Positions 2,468 to 11,173 of a DNA stretch of 64,000 nt are shown piece after piece; position 1 is the stretch's first letter, and the number at the start of each line of letters is the position of its first letter. Both the position numbers and the translations under genes were made by a program. The notes below the pieces were generated by a model. The model was not told where the DNA came from. It did not search any database and saw only the letters and a program-made list of their open reading frames with translations. Source of the DNA: Campylobacter peloridis LMG 23910 (lineage in GTDB: Bacteria; Campylobacterota; Campylobacteria; Campylobacterales; Campylobacteraceae); contig NZ_CP007766.1 in assembly GCF_000816785.1 (NCBI RefSeq), positions 620,001 to 684,000 on the forward strand, read 5' to 3'.

Positions 2468-2481
2468 TTCATTTTTTGGTT

Positions 2482-2557
2482 GTCTCGTTAGCTCAGCCGG
2501 TAGAGCATCTCCCTTTTAAGGAGGGGGCCGTTGGTTCGAATCCAACACGGGACACCA
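2482..2557 (+). tRNA. tRNA-Lys (UUU), copy 1
   Basis: A 76-nt cloverleaf with 7-bp acceptor (GTCTCGT with ACGGGAC, one G-U pair), anticodon loop CTTTTAA giving UUU, T-arm GGTTCGAATCC and an encoded CCA end. It is the first gene of the array. Confidence 0.95.
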
Positions 2558-2573
2558 CTTATATCTTTATTTT

Positions 2574-2649
2574 GGTCGCTTAGCTCAGTTGGTAGAGCGC
2601 CACCCTTACAAGGTGGATGTCATAAGTTCGAGTCTTATAGTGACCACCA
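2574..2649 (+). tRNA. tRNA-Val (UAC), copy 1
   Basis: A 76-nt tRNA: acceptor GGTCGCT with AGTGACC, anticodon stem CCACC/GGTGG enclosing CTTACAA (anticodon UAC), encoded CCA. Sixteen bases follow the preceding tRNA-Lys. Confidence 0.95.
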
Positions 2650-2662
2650 TTCTTTTTTAGGT

Positions 2663-2739
2663 GCGGCGGTAGTTCAGCTGGTTAGAATATCGGCCTGTCA
2701 CGCCGGAGGTCGCGGGTTCGAGCCCCGTCCGCCGCGCCA
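2663..2739 (+). tRNA. tRNA-Asp (GUC), copy 1
   Basis: A 77-nt tRNA: acceptor GCGGCGG with CCGCCGC, anticodon loop CTGTCAC (GUC), G discriminator and encoded CCA. Only two bases separate it from the next tRNA-Lys. Confidence 0.95.
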
Positions 2740-2741
2740 TT

Positions 2742-2817
2742 GTCTCGTTAGCTCAGCCGGTAGAGCATCTCCCTTTTAAGGAGGGGGCCGTTGGTTCGAA
2801 TCCAACACGGGACACCA
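2742..2817 (+). tRNA. tRNA-Lys (UUU), copy 2
   Basis: Identical to the copy 260 bp upstream, including flanks. It begins the second repeat of the Lys-Val-Asp block. Confidence 0.95.
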
Positions 2818-2833
2818 CTTATATCTTTATTTT

Positions 2834-2909
2834 GGTCGCTTAGCTCAGTTGGTAGAGCGCCACCCTTACAAGGTGGATGTCATAAGTTCGAGTCTTATAG
2901 TGACCACCA
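2834..2909 (+). tRNA. tRNA-Val (UAC), copy 2
   Basis: Identical to the tRNA-Val 260 bp upstream; anticodon UAC, encoded CCA. Confidence 0.95.
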
Positions 2910-2922
2910 TTCTTTTTTAGGT

Positions 2923-2999
2923 GCGGCGGTAGTTCAGCTGGTTAGAATATCGGCCTGTCACGCCGGAGGTCGCGGGTTCGAGCCCCGTCCGCCGCGCCA
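2923..2999 (+). tRNA. tRNA-Asp (GUC), copy 2
   Basis: Identical to the tRNA-Asp 260 bp upstream; anticodon GUC, encoded CCA. Confidence 0.95.
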
Positions 3000-3001
3000 T
3001 T

Positions 3002-3077
3002 GTCTCGTTAGCTCAGCCGGTAGAGCATCTCCCTTTTAAGGAGGGGGCCGTTGGTTCGAATCCAACACGGGACACCA
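3002..3077 (+). tRNA. tRNA-Lys (UUU), copy 3
   Basis: Third identical tRNA-Lys, starting a third repeat that breaks off right after the ACTT following its CCA. Unique sequence and tRNA-Glu follow. Confidence 0.95.
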
Positions 3078-3093
3078 CTTCAGCTAATTCTTT

Positions 3094-3169
3094 GACCCTT
3101 TCGTCTAGTGGCTCAGGACATCACTCTCTCTGTGTGAAAACAGAGGTTCAAATCCTCTAGGGGTCGCCA
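3094..3169 (+). tRNA. tRNA-Glu-like gene with odd anticodon arm (CUC)
   Basis: The body is a clear tRNA-Glu: acceptor GACCCTT with AGGGGTC, D-arm typical of Glu, T-arm GAGGTTCAAATCCTC, G discriminator and encoded CCA. The anticodon arm is unusual. Aligned on the Glu frame, the stem is TCACT/TGTGA with a T-T mismatch next to the loop, and the loop is CTCTCTG, giving anticodon CUC instead of the usual UUC and a U at position 37, where a purine is normal. It may be a minor isoacceptor or a decaying copy. It marks the border between core genome and the accessory region. Confidence 0.8.
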
Positions 3170-3464: not shown

Positions 3465-3804
3465 GTGTTTAATATATTCAAGAAACAATTTTAAAAATAG
3501 AATATTTGCTATTATATGAATTGCCAAAGTAGATTAAATCTTATTTTAAAGATTTAACCCTTAGTATAATTTTAGCTATTTTTTCAAAGCTATAAACATT
3601 TTTTAAAATCATTACCATTTAAATTTTTTCTAATATCTATAATTCTACATTATACTATATTAAATATTTTATTTTATGTCCTGCTTATACTGTAAAATAA
3701 AATATAAATGCTATGCTTTAGATAGTTTTAGAAGTTAGTAAAGATATTGTATGTTTAAAACAATAACTATTTTAAATGTAATAGTTGTGTTTTAAAAAAG
3801 CACT

Positions 3805-4389
3805 AGCCATATCGAAGATGATGATGCTCAAGTTGGTATTAATGATGAAAATAATAATGGTTGGGAAGATGATGGTTCTTGTGGAGGACAAATTTTTATC
3901 TTTAATGGAAAAGATAATAGATGTCGCTCTAAAGACAAATTTTTGGCTTAACTGGGGGTGGTTGCTGTGATAAAGATAAAGTATTTATAGGGCTTATACC
4001 TTGTAAAGAAGATAAAAAAAGCTAGCTAAACTCAATAAGCAAAATAGATGTGTAGAAGTTGGTGAATATTGCTCTAAAAAAATTAAATTCATAGCTTGTA
4101 TTCAGCATAAAAAACACATTGTTGTTTTAATTCAAAATTAGCAAGAATATTTAATGAGCAAGGACGCCCACAAATTGGAAGAGGTTGGGGTTCTCCAAAA
4201 AGTCCTGATTGTAGAGGATTTGTTCCAGAAGAATTTCAAAAGTTAGATTTTAGTGAAATAGATTTAAGTGAATTTATTGCTGATATTGTTGGAAGTATTG
4301 ATGTAGATAAAATACAAGCTGATTCTATAAAAATACAAGAAAAGATTGAAAGCAATCTTGAGAATTTAACAAGAAAACCTACTAATTAA
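3805..4389 (+). pseudogene. TraN-like conjugative transfer gene, C-terminal relic
   Basis: Joining three reading frames gives a cysteine-rich C-terminal part typical of TraN, the outer-membrane mating-pair stabilisation protein of F-type conjugation. Recognisable blocks in order are GQIFIFNGKDNRCRSKDKF, GLTGGGCCDKDKVF, LAKLNKQNRCVEVGEYC, HCCFNSKLARIFNEQGRP and GRGWGSPKSPDCRGFVPEEF, then an acidic tail ending RKPTN. At least three frameshifts, all near short homopolymers (the T5 near 3940, an A7 near 4015 and an A6 near 4110), and loss of the N-terminal part show that it is dead. It indicates a former conjugative element or plasmid at this site. Confidence 0.75.
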
Positions 4390-4401
4390 AAAGAAAAATA
4401 A

Positions 4402-4668
4402 AATTATAGAAAGGAGATAGAGTTTAGTTAAAAGTTTGTTTGGTACCGCAGGTAGCTCACTCTAGTTGCCCCAAAAAGGGGCTTGGTTAATATATCTTGA
4501 CTATAAATAGGCAAAGTAGTATAATAACCACTAAAATGAGCTTTACGAACCTCATTGAGTTATACCTCCTTTCAGGGGTTTCACAATTTAGCCGTAGGGG
4601 GTCAGCCTGCGGCTTAAACCCTTAATATAATTATACCGAACAAACTCTTTAACTTATTTAATACACAC
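4402..4668 (+). ncRNA. Structured RNA candidate, copy 1
   Basis: A roughly 260-bp non-coding element whose ends pair: AAAGTTTGTTTGGTA near 4431-4445 with TACCGAACAAACTCTTT near 4633-4650. Inside are hairpins GCCCC-AAAAA-GGGGC (4468-4482), AATGAG/CTCATT and a 9-bp stem at 4590-4614, plus a full consensus promoter. CTCCTTTC at 4566-4573 is an exact complement of GAAAGGAG at 4409-4416. A second copy 349 bp downstream keeps the architecture with different stem sequences. I do not recognise the family. It could instead be a small non-coding mobile element. Confidence 0.5.
4497..4525 (+). promoter_or_regulatory. Consensus sigma-70 promoter inside RNA element 1
   Basis: TTGACT (4497-4502), 17-bp spacer, TATAAT (4520-4525). 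A transcript would start near 4532 and cover the second half of the element, including CTCCTTTC and the 4590-4614 hairpin. A -35 this good is rare in this genome type. Confidence 0.65.
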
Positions 4669-4750
4669 AATAAAAAATTACTTTTTTGTTATTTAGAATT
4701 TATTTTTTTGTGTCTTTATTTAACACAAATGCTAAAAAAACAATATATAA

Positions 4751-5009
4751 AACTATAGAAAGGAGATGAAGTTTAGTTAAAAGTTTGTTTGGTAAAGCCA
4801 AAGGGATTATCCTAAACCCTGCAAAAGCAGGGGATACTCAATAAGCCTTGACATAGCAAAGTGTTAAGAGTATAATTATAAGGATAATTTTTGTTAGCAT
4901 TATGCTCACCTCCCTTCTGGGCGGTAAATTAACGCTAAAGGGTTGCGCCCCTTTGGCGTTGCACCCTTAATATAATTATATCAAACAAACTCTTTAGCTT
5001 CTTTAATAC
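4751..5009 (+). ncRNA. Structured RNA candidate, copy 2
   Basis: Second copy of the element at 4402-4668. The ends are nearly the same (AAAGTTTGTTTGGTA near 4780 and CAAACAAACTCTTT near 4983), but internal stems differ while keeping position: CCCTGC-AAAA-GCAGGG at 4817-4832 and a 12-bp stem at 4931-4960 (AACGCTAAAGGG with CCCTTTGGCGTT). Compensating stem changes support a folded RNA. GAAAGGAG at 4758-4765 faces CTCCCTTC at 4910-4917, one mismatch from complementary. Confidence 0.5.
4848..4876 (+). promoter_or_regulatory. Consensus sigma-70 promoter inside RNA element 2
   Basis: TTGACA (4848-4853), 17-bp spacer, TATAAT (4871-4876). It has the same position and spacing as in element 1 although the spacer sequence has diverged, so the promoter is a conserved part of the element. 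Confidence 0.65.
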
Positions 5010-5014
5010 AATTG

Positions 5015-5849: not shown

Positions 5850-5889
5850 TATAAAAAGTGATGAAAAATATACAGGACAAAGTTACTGA
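5850..5889 (+). pseudogene. Remnant of a lipoprotein 3' end (A)
   Basis: These bases encode KSDEKYTGQSY and a stop codon, the last residues of the lipoprotein found intact at 39854-40507, directly abutting the ATG of a stub as the full gene also does. An older lipoprotein-plus-effector pair has evidently been deleted down to this scar. Modules B to E carry the same scar. Confidence 0.7.
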
Positions 5890-6044
5890 TGAACCCTAAA
5901 GAACTTATTTCTCAAATCAAAGACTATGCTGATATAGCAGATGCTAGTTATGCTATGCTTGATTTAATCGATGAGAATGATGAAAAAGGTTTTAATAGTA
6001 TGTTAAATATAAAAACTAAATTTTACTTATACCAAGGTATTTGA
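5889..6044 (+). pseudogene. Effector N-terminal stub 1 (A)
   Basis: A 51-codon frame starting MNPKELISQIKDYADIADAS. The pattern K-DYA-(D/E)-(I/L)-A-AS-Y is shared with the N-termini of the lipases and all other stubs in the array. The sequence leaves the family after about 36 residues and stops, so it is a truncated effector start. It precedes the lipoprotein gene. Confidence 0.65.
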
Positions 6045-6072
6045 AATAATATACTTTAAAAAGGAGTATCAA

Positions 6073-6701
6073 ATGAAAATCACAATGATAATTCTAAGCT
6101 TATTTTCTTTAGTATCTTTAAGTGCATGTGCTTTTAAAGAAAATAAAGCAAGTGAATTAGAAACTCTTGCAAGTAATTATGGTGGAATTTATATCTTTGA
6201 TAAAAAAATAAGAGAAGAGATATTGGAAAATGAAAGAAAGAAAGGAGAGGCAATGAAAAAAATGTCTTTAGGGGATGATTTTTGGGATCAATTAAAAATC
6301 ATAGAAAAAAATTCCCTCAAGTCCTTTCTAATGGTTGTAAATATTATCGTAATGATTATAATTATAAAATAGGAGAATCAAACTTCAACTTCAAAGATAA
6401 ACCCGAATTTGCATACTATGAAGATCAATTTAAAGCATATATGGGTGAAGAAAACTATAAAAAATTAAGACCTTATTTAGGTATGACAACTTATTATGTG
6501 TGTGAGGGTAAAAAATATCCTGTTGTTTTTGCTACTATGATAGATTATAAAGTAAAAAGCTATGGATTGTTTGGAGATGAAGGAAGAGGATTTAGCTTTT
6601 CTAGTATTAGTCGTAAAAGTGCAGGAGGAGGATCTTTTCATTATTTTACTAATGGTAAATTTGTAAAAAGTGATGAAAAATATACAGGACAAAGTTACTG
6701 A
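6073..6701 (+). pseudogene. Immunity-like lipoprotein, frame-shifted OFF copy (A)
   Basis: A lipoprotein signal (MKITMIILSLFSLVSLSAC, lipobox LSAC) begins the gene after AAAAAGGAG. The frame breaks at an A7 tract (6305-6311). The module D homologue has A8 here and reads through to 217 residues. One more A would give a continuous ~209-aa protein ending KYTGQSY. The central part (about residues 57-80) differs from module D. Lipoproteins next to lipases are commonly immunity proteins guarding the periplasm, which is my inference here. The stop overlaps the ATG of stub 2 (TGATG region), suggesting coupled translation. Confidence 0.7.
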
Positions 6702-6823
6702 TGAACCCTAAAGAATTTATCTCTCAAATCAAAGACTATGCTAATATAGCAGATGCTAGTTATGCTATGTTGGAATATGTTACTTTTAATGTTCTTGGTA
6801 TTTATGGCTGGAATGGTTCCTAG
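6701..6823 (+). pseudogene. Effector N-terminal stub 2 (A)
   Basis: A 40-codon frame beginning MNPKEFISQIKDYANIADAS, overlapping the lipoprotein stop by one base. It has the family start and then diverges and stops. It was probably once the effector paired with the lipoprotein. Confidence 0.65.
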
Positions 6824-6887
6824 TGTAATTATATTTTGATTTTTAAAAAGTAGGATAATTTTATTAAAAATATAAAAAGGAAAATAA

Positions 6888-7351
6888 ATGGGTTTATTAA
6901 AAAAAATATACATTGCTTGGGGGATGTTTTGGGGAATTATTTTTTTGTTTAGTTCTTTATATGCTTATTTTAGTGATATAGAATTTTTGGTGATATGTTA
7001 AAGATTGCATTTTTTATATATTCTTATCCATTGTTACCTTACATATCATATTTAACACTACAAGAAACTATTAAATCCAAAAATATTTTTCTTTATTTTT
7101 CTTTATTTTTCTTTATTTTTCTTTATTTTTCTTTATTTTTCTTTATTTTTCTTTATTTTTCTTTATTTTTCTTTATCTCGGGGGGATTTTTTAATTATGT
7201 AATAATATTAGGTATTTATACAATATTATTTTTAATAATATCTATTAAATTTAGAAAAGAACTTTCTTATTATTTTTCTTTATTATTTTGTATTTTTTTA
7301 TACATTTTTTTATATCTTTTTATTTTCTATATGGATTTAAAAAATGAGTAA
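6888..7351 (+). pseudogene. Immunity-like membrane protein with 10-bp repeat tract, split frame (A)
   Basis: Two frames overlap at ATGTTAA (6995-7001): 37 residues starting MGLLKKIYIAWGMFWGI, then 118 residues. Together they resemble the intact 170-aa membrane protein downstream (MIILKNLYIIWIIIWGFG), so this is probably one gene with a frameshift, though coupled translation of two parts is possible. The second part contains nine copies of ATTTTTCTTT (7085-7174), coding a repetitive FLYFSLFFFI membrane segment. Module D has eight copies, which changes the frame. Confidence 0.6.
7085..7174. repeat. 10-bp tandem repeat, 9 copies (A)
   Basis: ATTTTTCTTT repeated nine times inside a membrane protein gene. 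The unit length is not a multiple of three, so gain or loss of a copy changes the reading frame. Module E also has nine copies and module D eight. Confidence 0.95.
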
Positions 7352-7397
7352 TAAAGCTCAAATTAACAATCTCAAAAATTATGCTAAACTTGTATAG
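7344..7397 (+). pseudogene. Effector N-terminal stub 3 (A)
   Basis: A 17-codon frame, MSNKAQINNLKNYAKLV, overlapping the end of the membrane protein gene. It matches the first residues of the lipase family (KTQINNLKDYAEL) and then stops. It is the shortest stub in the array. Confidence 0.55.
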
Positions 7398-7453
7398 ATT
7401 GGTTTTTTTGATTTTTTAATAATAATTTAAATTTCAACAAAAAAGGAAGTAGT

Positions 7454-7966
7454 GTGATAATACTAAAAAATCTATATATTATTTGGATTATAATTTGGGG
7501 ATTTGGGGCTATTTTAGGTTATTATATGGGATATGATGCAACTTTTACTAAAATATTCTTTTTTCTTGTTATACTTTATCTTTTTCCATTGTTGCCTTAT
7601 TTGCATTATTTAATTTTTGAAAAAGCAAAGAACAAAAATATATTCATTTCTATTTGTTATTATCTACTATTATTTGTTATTACCGCTTATTATTTTACTT
7701 TAATATATTCATGTGGAGCAAATTTTTTAACATTTTTTATAATGATTACTTTATATATGATTATTTGTAGTGCTATAATTTTATGGAAATTTAAAATAAA
7801 TTTAAGATTATATTTTTACATAATTTTATGTATTTTTACTTATCTCTATATAGTTTTACATGTTTTTATAGTATGTTATGAAATAGAATGGGCAGATATA
7901 CTGTTAGATAAAGATATAAGGATATATATTTACGGAGAAATAATTAATTTGCTTACGGAGCAATAA
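7454..7966 (+). CDS. Immunity-like multi-pass membrane protein, 170 aa (A)
   Basis: An intact hydrophobic protein with about four or five predicted membrane segments, starting at GTG 7454 after AAAAAGGAAG. Its N-terminal ~48 residues (LKNLYIIWIIIWGFG onward) are shared with the 124-aa protein at 41250-41624 in module D, but the rest is different. It lies directly upstream of stub 4; in module D its relative lies directly upstream of an intact lipase with the same N-terminus as stub 4. That pairing suggests immunity to that lipase. No enzymatic motif is visible. Confidence 0.7.
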   Translation: MIILKNLYIIWIIIWGFGAILGYYMGYDATFTKIFFFLVILYLFPLLPYLHYLIFEKAKNKNIFISICYYLLLFVITAYYFTLIYSCGANFLTFFIMITLYMIICSAIILWKFKINLRLYFYIILCIFTYLYIVLHVFIVCYEIEWADILLDKDIRIYIYGEIINLLTEQ

Positions 7967-7973
7967 TTTGTTT

Positions 7974-7979
7974 TATAAT
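7974..7979 (+). promoter_or_regulatory. Possible -10 box before stub 4 (A)
   Basis: TATAAT in the 42-bp gap between the 170-aa membrane gene and stub 4, preceded by a T-rich stretch. The same site is at 52546-52551 in module E. Confidence 0.3.
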
Positions 7980-8008
7980 AAATCTTATTTTTATAGGGGA
8001 ATAAATTA

Positions 8009-8434
8009 ATGAAAACTCAAATCAATAATTTAAAAGATTATGCAGAACTTGCATGGGCTAGTTATTTTTATTTTGATTTAAAAGGTTGCATATTACAAGA
8101 AAATGAAACTATCGTTACTTTAAATGAGCTTGTAAGTTTAAGTTATAACGGAAACATAGCTGGAAGAAAAGAAAAGGTCGGACAAGAATATAGTTTTATT
8201 GGCAAAGGTGAATTAAATGGAGAATTTGGAGAATTACAAGCTAGGAATTTCTCTCAAAGATATGAGGTTCAATTTCATCAGCCTAACACTTTAAGTGGTT
8301 TTAGTGCTACTTTGTTTGGAGAAAAAAGAAAACAAATTGATAGTAAAACTAAAGAAAAAATCTATACAAGTGAATATGGCTATATCAATTATATTTTAGC
8401 CATTAGAGGAATAGAGCCTAAGGAAGTCAAATAA
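8009..8434 (+). pseudogene. Lipase effector N-terminal stub 4 (A)
   Basis: 141 residues, beginning MKTQINNLKDYAELAWASYF and containing the conserved effector block LNGEFGELQARNFSQRY, FHQPNT and GFSATLF. It ends near ILAIRGIE, which corresponds to the VVGFRGTE block of the lipases. The GHSLGG nucleophile and the rest are missing. Its start equals that of the intact module D lipase, so it is the remnant of an older lipase whose back half was lost. Confidence 0.75.
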
Positions 8435-8941
8435 TGAAAAAGTTTCTTGCACCTAAAAAGATTATCTTAGTATTTATTACATTATTTGGAATTTATCTAC
8501 TTGGAATCCCGCTTTATTATACTCCTTATGAATTACAATCAAGTTATTGGAAGTTTAAGAAAATATGTGAGTTAGATATTACACCGCCTTCTAAAAAAAA
8601 GAACAGAGAAAGCATTAAAATTATTTGGAGTTAATCCTAGTGATTTACAAAATAATTTAAAACTTGAGAATAATAATTATATTGCACGATTTAGATATGA
8701 TACTGAGAGAATAAAAGCTCAGTTAAATATTAAAATGGATTTGGAAAAAAATATAATAGAAATCAATGAATCAGGCTCAATTTGGTATGATTGGAGACCT
8801 ATGATATTAGGCAATGAAGGCAATATGGATTTTAGAGTTATGTGGAATAATTATATTACCTGTGGTAATATCTATATTAAAGAGATGCCAGAATGTTTTA
8901 AAGATAATAAGTTTATCTGTAATTTTAAGGAGGCAAAATGA
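8434..8941 (+). pseudogene. Immunity-like single-pass membrane protein, frame-shifted (A)
   Basis: The first frame (8434-8634) has a positively charged start and one membrane helix (IILVFITLFGIYLLGIPL). At an A8 tract (8593-8600) the natural continuation (TEKALKLFGVNPSDLQ and onward to FKEAK at 8941) moves to another frame. With A7 the product would be one 168-aa protein with a membrane anchor and an extracytoplasmic domain. Its start overlaps the stop of stub 4 by one base, and its end overlaps stub 5 (ATGA). Inferred immunity protein. Confidence 0.65.
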
Positions 8942-9375
8942 CAAATAAAGAGATAGTTGAAAAACTACGAGATAACGCTGAGTTAGCATGGGCTAGCTAT
9001 GGATATTTTCACTATTTTTTAGAACAGCAAAGTAAATCTCACTTTCTTGTAATGCAAGATAGGCAAGGCAATGAAATTAGAGACGCTGACAATAAACCTA
9101 AAATTCAAGAAATTTACATTACGGATATTTTGAATACAAACTATAAAAATCATAGAGTTGTTGAATTTGTTCAGTTAGATAAAGAACAAAAAGAAATTAC
9201 TATCAGCAAGCTCGATGGCGACTTCTCCCCACTCCAAGCCAAACAATTCTTAGATAGATATGATTTATTAATCCATCAAACAAATACAGAGTCAAGCTTT
9301 TCTGCTGCTTTGTTCTATGATACATACAAAGATGGTTTCGTGGTGTGGTTTAGGGAAACAGAATGCGGATTCTAA
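8938..9375 (+). pseudogene. Lipase effector N-terminal stub 5 (A)
   Basis: 145 residues starting MTNKEIVEKLRDNAELAWAS. It contains LDGDFSPLQAKQFLDRY, HQTNT and SAALFYD, and ends just after FVVWFRETE, the equivalent of the lipase FVVGFRGTE block. Everything from the nucleophile onward is missing. The cut is at nearly the same family position as in stub 4. The next gene starts 13 bases before its stop. Confidence 0.75.
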
Positions 9376-9617
9376 AAATACTTTATATTTGTTGGATTAT
9401 ATTATGTGTTGTAGGTTGGTTTATATCTCCTATTGTTGGACATAATCCAAATAGGGTTGAGGAGTTTTTTATAATGCTTGGTTGGATAGTCTTTCCACTA
9501 ATGATAGCCAATCTATGGCTTTTTGGAATAACAAGAATTAAAAAATATTTAAGGAATTTTTTAATATTGTTTTTATATTACCCTTTGGCATTTGCTCTGT
9601 TTTTGGTGCTAAATTAA
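9363..9617 (+). CDS. Immunity-like small membrane protein, 84 aa (A)
   Basis: A hydrophobic protein with about three membrane segments, starting MRILKILYICWIILCVVGWF; the start resembles the other array membrane proteins (LKxLYIxWIxxWG). It lies 14 bp upstream of the only complete lipase of this module, so by position it is the best candidate immunity protein for it. No enzymatic motif. Confidence 0.65.
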   Translation: MRILKILYICWIILCVVGWFISPIVGHNPNRVEEFFIMLGWIVFPLMIANLWLFGITRIKKYLRNFLILFLYYPLAFALFLVLN

Positions 9618-9631
9618 CTTTAGGAGACTAA

Positions 9632-11173
9632 ATGAAAGAATTAATCAACAATCTAAGAGACTATGCCGAGTTGGCTCAAGCAAGTTATTTTAACTTTATG
9701 TATATCAATAACGATGAGCGAGAAATGGATAGTTATAAAATAGGGCAAAATAGATTCCCTAAAGATAAAGACAATATAGAAAATTTAGAATATACAAAGA
9801 CCTTATCTAAAAAATATAAAGATTATTTTATTTATGATGATTCCATTGCACTATATCCGACACTTAATGGAGAATTTGGGGAGATTCAAGCTAAAAACTT
9901 TGCTAAAAAATATGAGATTAAATTCCACCAACCAAATACGGCTTCTGGCTTTAGTGCTACTTTGTTTTATGATAAAGAAAAAGATAAGTTTGTAGTAGGG
10001 TTTAGGGGGACAGAGGGACTTTGGAGTATGGATACTTTGGCGGATATAGGGCTTACCTTTGGTAAGGGCGATTTTCAACTTAATGCTTTAAAGCAATTTT
10101 TATTAGACATAGCACCTATTTTAAACAAAGTAGATTCAAATAATATTATTTTTATAGGGCATTCTTTAGGCGGATATTTAGCAGTTATAGCAATGCAATT
10201 TTGCGATACTATTGATAGGAGCTTAAATACACAATTTAATGCAATCAAATTTATGGCATCGCAAGTCTATACTTTTAATTCTCCTGCTATTGATGAGATT
10301 GATAATATGCTAATGCGGGCTTTGGCAGCATTATTAGATAAAAATATTATGGAGCAAGTCTTAAATCCCCAAAAAGTATATTGTGTCTATGACAGCGGTG
10401 GTATAAATATCATCGCTTCTGCTCAATATGGCTCACACAATAGACTGCCTATCTATACGGGTAAAGATTCTCACTCCATAATCCCCCTAACTCAAACTCT
10501 TTACTTCTACTCCTATCTTTTAGAATTAGATGCTAACCATAACAAAGTCAAAGATAAAAGTTTTAGTGAATGTATAGAGTATCTTAATCATTTTATGAAA
10601 AATATTCAAATATATACAGAAACTTTTGTGTTAAAAAATAATGCTATTAATAATAAAAATTTCGCTCTTAAAAATGGACCTCTTGGGCTTTTAAGAAGCT
10701 CTCCAGAAAAAATCAACCATTTTGAATATTTTCTTTCATTAATAGCCACCATAATGCAAGAAACAAATGGTATTTTAGAAGAGGTTGGAGATAATTATTA
10801 TACAAGCTACAAAGCTCCTACCATTAGTCAAACAAAAATCATAGATTTTATTTTAAAAGCACATGAAAAAGAAAAATATATTTTAATTCTTGATAAAAAT
10901 GATTTTAATAAATACAGAAAAGATTGTTCCTTTATTAATAATCAAGAAAATTTAGCTCATAAAATTGCCATTGGGGAATTTAGAATTTTCATTGTAGTTT
11001 ATAAAGATATGAAATGTCTTGAAAATATTAATAATATAACAAAAATATACAGATATAATTCAAAAAGTTATAAAATAAAAGATCAAATTTGGGATGAGCA
11101 ATATTTAGGTGGAGTTTGTAAAATATCACAAGCTTTGTATTTTAATGGAAAAGCTAAAATAGGTATTATTTAG
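9632..11173 (+). CDS. Lipase-family effector, 513 aa (A)
   Basis: An alpha/beta-hydrolase of the class 3 lipase type. The N-terminal array domain (about 1-128) has KELINNLRDYAELAQAS, LNGEFGEIQAKNF, FHQPNT and FVVGFRGTE. The nucleophile elbow is IGHSLGG with Ser178; likely partners are Asp254 (VYDSGG) and His281 (GKDSHS). The C-terminal half (about 260-513) is identical to that of the otherwise different module D lipase, so it is a constant region, perhaps for loading onto the PAAR-like protein encoded 8 bp downstream. There is no signal peptide. Lipases with this context are typical phospholipase effectors of type VI secretion, which is the inferred role. AGGAGA precedes the ATG. Confidence 0.8.
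   Translation: MKELINNLRDYAELAQASYFNFMYINNDEREMDSYKIGQNRFPKDKDNIENLEYTKTLSKKYKDYFIYDDSIALYPTLNGEFGEIQAKNFAKKYEIKFHQPNTASGFSATLFYDKEKDKFVVGFRGTEGLWSMDTLADIGLTFGKGDFQLNALKQFLLDIAPILNKVDSNNIIFIGHSLGGYLAVIAMQFCDTIDRSLNTQFNAIKFMASQVYTFNSPAIDEIDNMLMRALAALLDKNIMEQVLNPQKVYCVYDSGGINIIASAQYGSHNRLPIYTGKDSHSIIPLTQTLYFYSYLLELDANHNKVKDKSFSECIEYLNHFMKNIQIYTETFVLKNNAINNKNFALKNGPLGLLRSSPEKINHFEYFLSLIATIMQETNGILEEVGDNYYTSYKAPTISQTKIIDFILKAHEKEKYILILDKNDFNKYRKDCSFINNQENLAHKIAIGEFRIFIVVYKDMKCLENINNITKIYRYNSKSYKIKDQIWDEQYLGGVCKISQALYFNGKAKIGII

Follow-up and report, generated by a model that had tools for sequence, protein, structure and literature searches.

The stretch of DNA analysed here (the window; 64,000 nucleotides of Campylobacter peloridis LMG 23910, contig NZ_CP007766.1) holds two elements of about 260 bp in tandem, at 4395-4664 (copy 1) and 4744-5010 (copy 2), with a spacing of 345-349 nt. 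Between the copies, identity is 88% over 58 nt at one end and 85% over 59 nt at the other; the ends form inverted repeats in both, and hairpins appear at equivalent positions when either copy is folded. A sequence-only reading had described elements of this size with shared pairing ends, and both the similar ends and the inverted repeats were detected; the TTGAC(T/A)-17-TATAAT promoter that it assigned to each element is likewise present on the plus strand, as a near-perfect sigma-70 promoter (Table 1). On the minus strand, each element has the layout of a small gene, with a -10 box, a structured 5'UTR of ~60 nt, a strong Shine-Dalgarno (SD) sequence, a hydrophobic ORF of 20-22 codons whose product has VK[A/I]Y at its end, and a 3'UTR that is structured and finishes with an anti-SD. 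The same reading had placed an SD-like sequence, GAAAGGAG at 4409-4416 and 4758-4765, opposite CTCC(T/C)TTC at 4566-4573 and 4910-4917. That pairing stands, but the plus-strand "SD" does not, as it is the complement of the anti-SD at the 3' end of the putative toxin mRNA.

Table 1. Features of the two tandem elements and of the adjoining gene relics (window coordinates; transcripts and toxin function are predicted).
Feature	Position	Strand	Basis or remark
Copy 1 putative toxin ORF, 22 aa, MRFVKLILVVIILLCLFIVKIY	4487..4555	-	family alignment and coding constraint
Copy 2 putative toxin ORF, 20 aa, MLTKIILIIILLTLCYVKAY	4838..4900	-	family alignment and coding constraint
Copy 1 SD of toxin mRNA, GAAAGGAGG	4565..4573	-	sequence; predicted pairing
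Copy 2 SD of toxin mRNA, GAAGGGAGG	4909..4917	-	sequence; predicted pairing
Copy 1 toxin promoter -10, TATAAT	4630..4635	-	sequence; putative TSS ~4623
Copy 2 toxin promoter -10, TATAAT	4975..4980	-	sequence; putative TSS ~4968
Copy 1 antitoxin promoter, TTGACT-17-TATAAT, within toxin ORF	4497..4525	+	11/12 consensus; putative RNA start ~4532
Copy 2 antitoxin promoter, TTGACA-17-TATAAT, within toxin ORF	4848..4876	+	12/12 consensus; putative RNA start ~4883
Copy 1 toxin mRNA 5'UTR hairpin	4590..4614	-	covaries in family
Copy 2 toxin mRNA 5'UTR hairpin	4931..4960	-	5' arm can alternatively pair CCCUUUGGC in 3'UTR
Copy 1 3'UTR segment pairing toxin codons (AGCTCATTTTAGT x ACTAGAGTGAGCT)	4454..4466	-	covariation; helix survey
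Copy 2 3'UTR segment pairing toxin codons (ATTATCCT x AGGATAAT)	4806..4813	-	helix survey
Copy 1 hairpin directly after stop codon	4468..4482	-	predicted fold
Copy 2 hairpin after stop codon	4817..4832	-	predicted fold
Copy 1 3' anti-SD, CUCCUUUC	4409..4416	-	predicted SD pairing probability 0.99
Copy 2 3' anti-SD, CUCCUUUC	4758..4765	-	predicted SD pairing probability 1.0
Copy 1 terminal inverted repeat arm	4430..4445	.	partner ~4634-4654, overlapping toxin promoter
Copy 2 terminal inverted repeat arm	4779..4794	.	partner ~4979-4999
Decayed C-terminal part of traN (conjugal transfer), adjoining the pair	3785..4388	+	via near-identical locus L002
Relic of Campylobacter-plasmid gene	5162..5781	+	plasmid gene lies beside same element pair and a traG-like gene

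Relics of conjugative genes had been said to flank the elements, and this holds, since the frame upstream is the C-terminus of TraN; in the near-identical locus used to recognise it, an open stretch of 110 aa matches TraN of a C. coli plasmid at 68%. With a decayed traN upstream and, downstream, the relic of a gene that neighbours the same pair on Campylobacter plasmids, the pair most likely arrived with a conjugative element. Two other features of this part of the window were observed. At 2480-3169, a tRNA Lys-Val-Asp block is repeated exactly in tandem: the 260-bp unit is present in 2.3 copies, 100% identical, and tRNA-Glu(CTC) comes after them. This is either a recent duplication or an effect of assembly. 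At 5889-11173, short ORFs in series repeat the N-terminus (KDYAELAxASY-like) of a 513-aa protein, which is intact at 9632-11173, lipase-like and weakly matched by Lipase_3/Mbeg1-like; the series resembles an array of gene copies in decay.

The ORFs encode hydrophobic peptides, each with an SD and a start codon, that end in VKIY and VKAY; an in-frame GTG at 4909 would lengthen the copy 2 peptide to 23 aa. The core shared by the family is [I/V]IILLCxxxVKAY, with remoter members ending in IKAY, RAY or QAY. The reading frame is open in nearly all relatives, and the second codon position is the best conserved. Outside the promoter hexamers, 270 synonymous and 273 non-synonymous single changes were counted, with 24% synonymous expected; close pairs contribute non-independent events, and the count is thus indicative of coding constraint on the ORF and not an exact test. 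Both peptides, of 20 and 22 residues, are probable membrane toxins. Searches of Pfam and NCBIfam with the peptides gave no match, a result that is uninformative for 20-mers. In one member of the family (L017:1485-1703 and L052), a stop codon interrupts the frame shortly before the conserved core, and IIFIIILLMFCYVKAF follows; this member is an inactivated toxin with its RNA structure kept. The TATAAT of the toxin promoter is present in 48 of 54 full-length relatives.

Evidence for an antitoxin comes from the same 54 sequences, which were collected by a profile search that made no use of the promoter. In every one of them, the strand antisense to the ORF carries TTGACN-17-TATAAT, mismatched at one position at most, while 2.4 are expected by shuffling. 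The -10 box coincides with the Ile-Ile codons of the toxin and the -35 box with its Val-Lys codons, a tight overprinting in which the antitoxin promoter boxes double as toxin codons and which would explain why the II and VK residues are invariant. From its position, this plus-strand promoter should drive an RNA antisense to the RBS and 5'UTR of the toxin, and the predicted starts agree with the transcripts that the sequence-only reading had expected near 4532 and 4883. No classical terminator was found for either the toxin RNA or the antisense RNA. The antisense regions of the two copies are 56% identical, with a longest common run of 12 nt, and so each copy probably silences only itself.

RNAalifold on a MAFFT alignment gave no consensus structure. 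MAFFT misaligns the 3'UTR, and we therefore used a swap test, in which each helix arm was hybridised to its own partner and to the partners from the other 29 members. The case for covariation rests on this test together with counts made on named structures; the family model itself (R1) is a sequence-only one, and Rfam reported nothing on the elements at curated thresholds, with sub-threshold matches at chance level. Own partners were preferred for the toxin codons with the 3'UTR (z -11.4), for the 5'UTR hairpin (z -8.0) and for the 5'UTR with the 3'UTR (z -5.4); the terminal inverted repeat gave z -4.3 or -7.3, depending on which of two tail definitions was taken. Such scores can be inflated by relatedness of the members; the controls, three unrelated segment pairs that share the same relatedness, gave z within 0.4 of zero. 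Values near -4 need care, as codons and tail, never proposed as a helix, scored -4.5. For a hairpin formed locally by the SD and an anti-SD upstream of it, support is weak (z -1.7). The hairpins had been thought to keep their places while their sequences changed in a compensating manner, and in 30 non-redundant relatives 8 of the 11 pairs of the 5'UTR hairpin have double-sided changes; the sequence-only reading was right in seeing a structured, covarying RNA. For two helices taken jointly, the covariation score was reached by none of 500 shuffles and was lost when the register was slid. Helices of 8-13 bp between codons and 3'UTR occur in most members, in 25 different sequences.

The SD and the tail do not covary in the swap test, as expected because both sides are nearly invariant. 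Pairing of the SD with the 3' anti-SD has a mean probability of 0.45 over 20 relatives and is strong in part of the family, and in view of this unevenness the mechanism that closes the mRNA may differ between subfamilies. In the window copies, removal of the last 35 nt of the mRNA is predicted to free the SD in part. The covarying inverted repeat extends upstream of the predicted toxin start, for which a simple mRNA-closing model has no explanation. Two relatives (L058:3055-3263 and L013:1832-2080) are apparent chimeras whose 5' and 3' halves resemble different subfamilies, which suggests recombination between paralogues; the helix between codons and 3'UTR is lost in L058.

Seven copies are present in the genome, of which four lie on the main contig and the other three on a contig of 48 kb. 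By DNA search, 29 of 49 genomes of the genus have relatives; with a sequence profile made from 30 non-redundant members the number rises to 34 of the 49, with up to 8 copies each, and six other genera of the order are added. A pattern scan whose matches carry organism names hit Campylobacter and Helicobacter species and one metagenome bin labelled Ruminiclostridium; this last match (L068) yields no family peptide. The family is carried by 44 plasmids, all from Campylobacter, and by prophage contigs of IMG/VR; the phage records of INPHARED gave no match. On the large Campylobacter plasmids L056, L060 and L061, the element has a tyrosine recombinase gene on one side and a VgrG or hypothetical gene on the other. 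Tandem remote relatives in another family of the order (L185, 157 and 636, plus strand) have peptides ending in TCQAY and TSQAY that look like E. coli IbsA (...SFQAY), possibly as a bridge to Ibs or by convergence. Arnion in 2017 is reported to have noted systems of a similar kind in many genomes of Helicobacter and Campylobacter. None of the 40 listed plasmid matches has an annotated feature beneath it (one record being wholly unannotated), and a C. jejuni Ribo-seq paper makes no mention of toxin-antitoxin, antitoxin or AapA (PMC11955535).

The closest known arrangement is that of AapA/IsoA in Helicobacter, where it has been established by experiment for aapA3/IsoA3. In H. pylori, the -10 box of the IsoA promoter of aapA3/IsoA3 is inside the toxin ORF, and the 80-nt antisense RNA IsoA3 silences aapA3; a 5'-3' interaction that involves an anti-SD closes the full-length aapA3 mRNA of 225 nt, and loss of its last 35 nt activates it (PMC6733600). 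The elements described here likewise have the antitoxin promoter within the toxin ORF, and their antisense RNA would cover the RBS and 5'UTR; a toxin mRNA of ~200-230 nt with 5'-3' closure and an anti-SD is predicted for both window copies, and less evenly for their relatives. Several non-identical loci per genome are found in Campylobacterota in both cases (PMC6733600, PMC8322730). They differ in the length and C-terminus of the peptide: AapA1 and AapA3 have 30 aa and AapA proteins end in a conserved Lys-Arg (PMC10537873, PMC6733600), whereas the peptides of the family have 19-23 aa and finish with VKAY or a variant of it. The antitoxin -10 box was found in the toxin ORF of the window elements, and the peptide of ~30 aa with a C-terminal Lys-Arg was not, the window peptides having 20-22 aa and ending in VKIY/VKAY.

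The Ibs peptides of the E. coli Ibs/Sib loci are similarly hydrophobic, have 18-19 aa and mostly end in AY, and these loci are also multicopy with an antisense RNA antitoxin. However, Sib RNA starts downstream of the ibs stop codon and holds the whole ORF, whereas the antitoxin promoter here is within the ORF. The family is not a Pfam Ibs member: the Pfam model Ibs_toxin PF13956 passed its cut-off in none of the 49 genus genomes and in one control genome, E. coli being listed first. By position-specific score against Ibs, the peptide was above shuffles only for IbsC (p 0.007) and IbsD (p 0.04), more weakly so when the last two residues were fixed, and when the two peptide profiles were compared with hhalign, a single column was aligned. 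The hok/Sok, Fst, Ldr and TisB systems also combine a small membrane toxin with an RNA antitoxin; their peptides and layouts differ from those of the window elements. They gave no match in the libraries searched. A 5'-3' mRNA interaction and 3' processing are known for hok as well (cited in PMC6733600).

A short hydrophobic ORF with an RBS and under coding constraint, together with an antisense promoter conserved in 54/54 relatives, is what the sequence of a type I system would offer. We conclude that each element is very probably a complete type I toxin-antitoxin locus, with predicted toxicity and transcripts, controlled like AapA/IsoA of Helicobacter and encoding a different peptide. The strong inner promoter would give an antisense RNA of ~80-130 nt over the toxin RBS and 5'UTR, and its duplex with the mRNA would block translation and lay both RNAs open to RNase III. 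At full length, the toxin mRNA would close on itself, the 3' anti-SD pairing with the SD and the helix between codons and 3'UTR folding the start of the ORF, until 3' trimming opens it. Should the short-lived antisense RNA be lost, through loss of the element or under stress, the opened mRNA would be translated and the peptide would insert in the inner membrane and stop growth.

How else might the elements be explained? One of two possibilities raised by the sequence-only reading, beside a non-coding mobile element, is a regulatory RNA, here taken as a non-coding one from the plus strand, that controls the neighbouring transfer genes, and the consensus promoters on that strand, the structure and the relics of conjugative genes nearby would suit it. 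However, that reading had overlooked the minus-strand ORFs of 20-22 codons, and what the family conserves is a protein-coding frame on this opposite strand, to which a plus-strand RNA would be wholly antisense. Since relatives occur in chromosomes, plasmids and prophages and in unrelated contexts, control of transfer genes in cis is unlikely, and this explanation as a whole is extremely unlikely. It is very unlikely that we are dealing with a miniature mobile element, a passenger moved by a transposase in which the peptide gene is incidental. Conserved and covarying terminal inverted repeats, multiple copies per genome and tandem copies are all in its favour, but the peptide frame and the antisense promoter are the best conserved parts and the inverted repeat also fits a 5'-3' mRNA interaction. 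Several orthologous loci, moreover, have flanks in common for kilobases, which points to loci that were inherited or moved with larger pieces.

The least probable reading of any considered here is that of degenerate type I loci in which the antisense RNA has turned into a trans-acting sRNA. The window pair is set among decayed genes, and a degenerate type I locus has been suggested as the origin of the H. pylori sRNA NikS (PMC8687705). Yet both ORFs, their SDs, both promoters and the anti-SD are intact in the window, and near-identical peptides are retained in other species.

Taken as type I toxin-antitoxin loci, the copies on plasmids and prophages would act as addiction modules, and the pair in the window would be a remnant at a decayed conjugative (TraN) locus. 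A more far-reaching proposal, which we consider rather unlikely, is that the [I/V]IILLCxxxVKAY peptides constitute an undescribed family, unrelated to AapA, that is under AapA-style RNA control and serves as a small addiction module that is common in plasmids and prophages of Campylobacter, the covarying inverted repeat, which includes the toxin promoter, being an additional and unrecognised feature of control or mobility. Genome annotation misses what is apparently a widespread addiction or dormancy module in food-borne Campylobacter.
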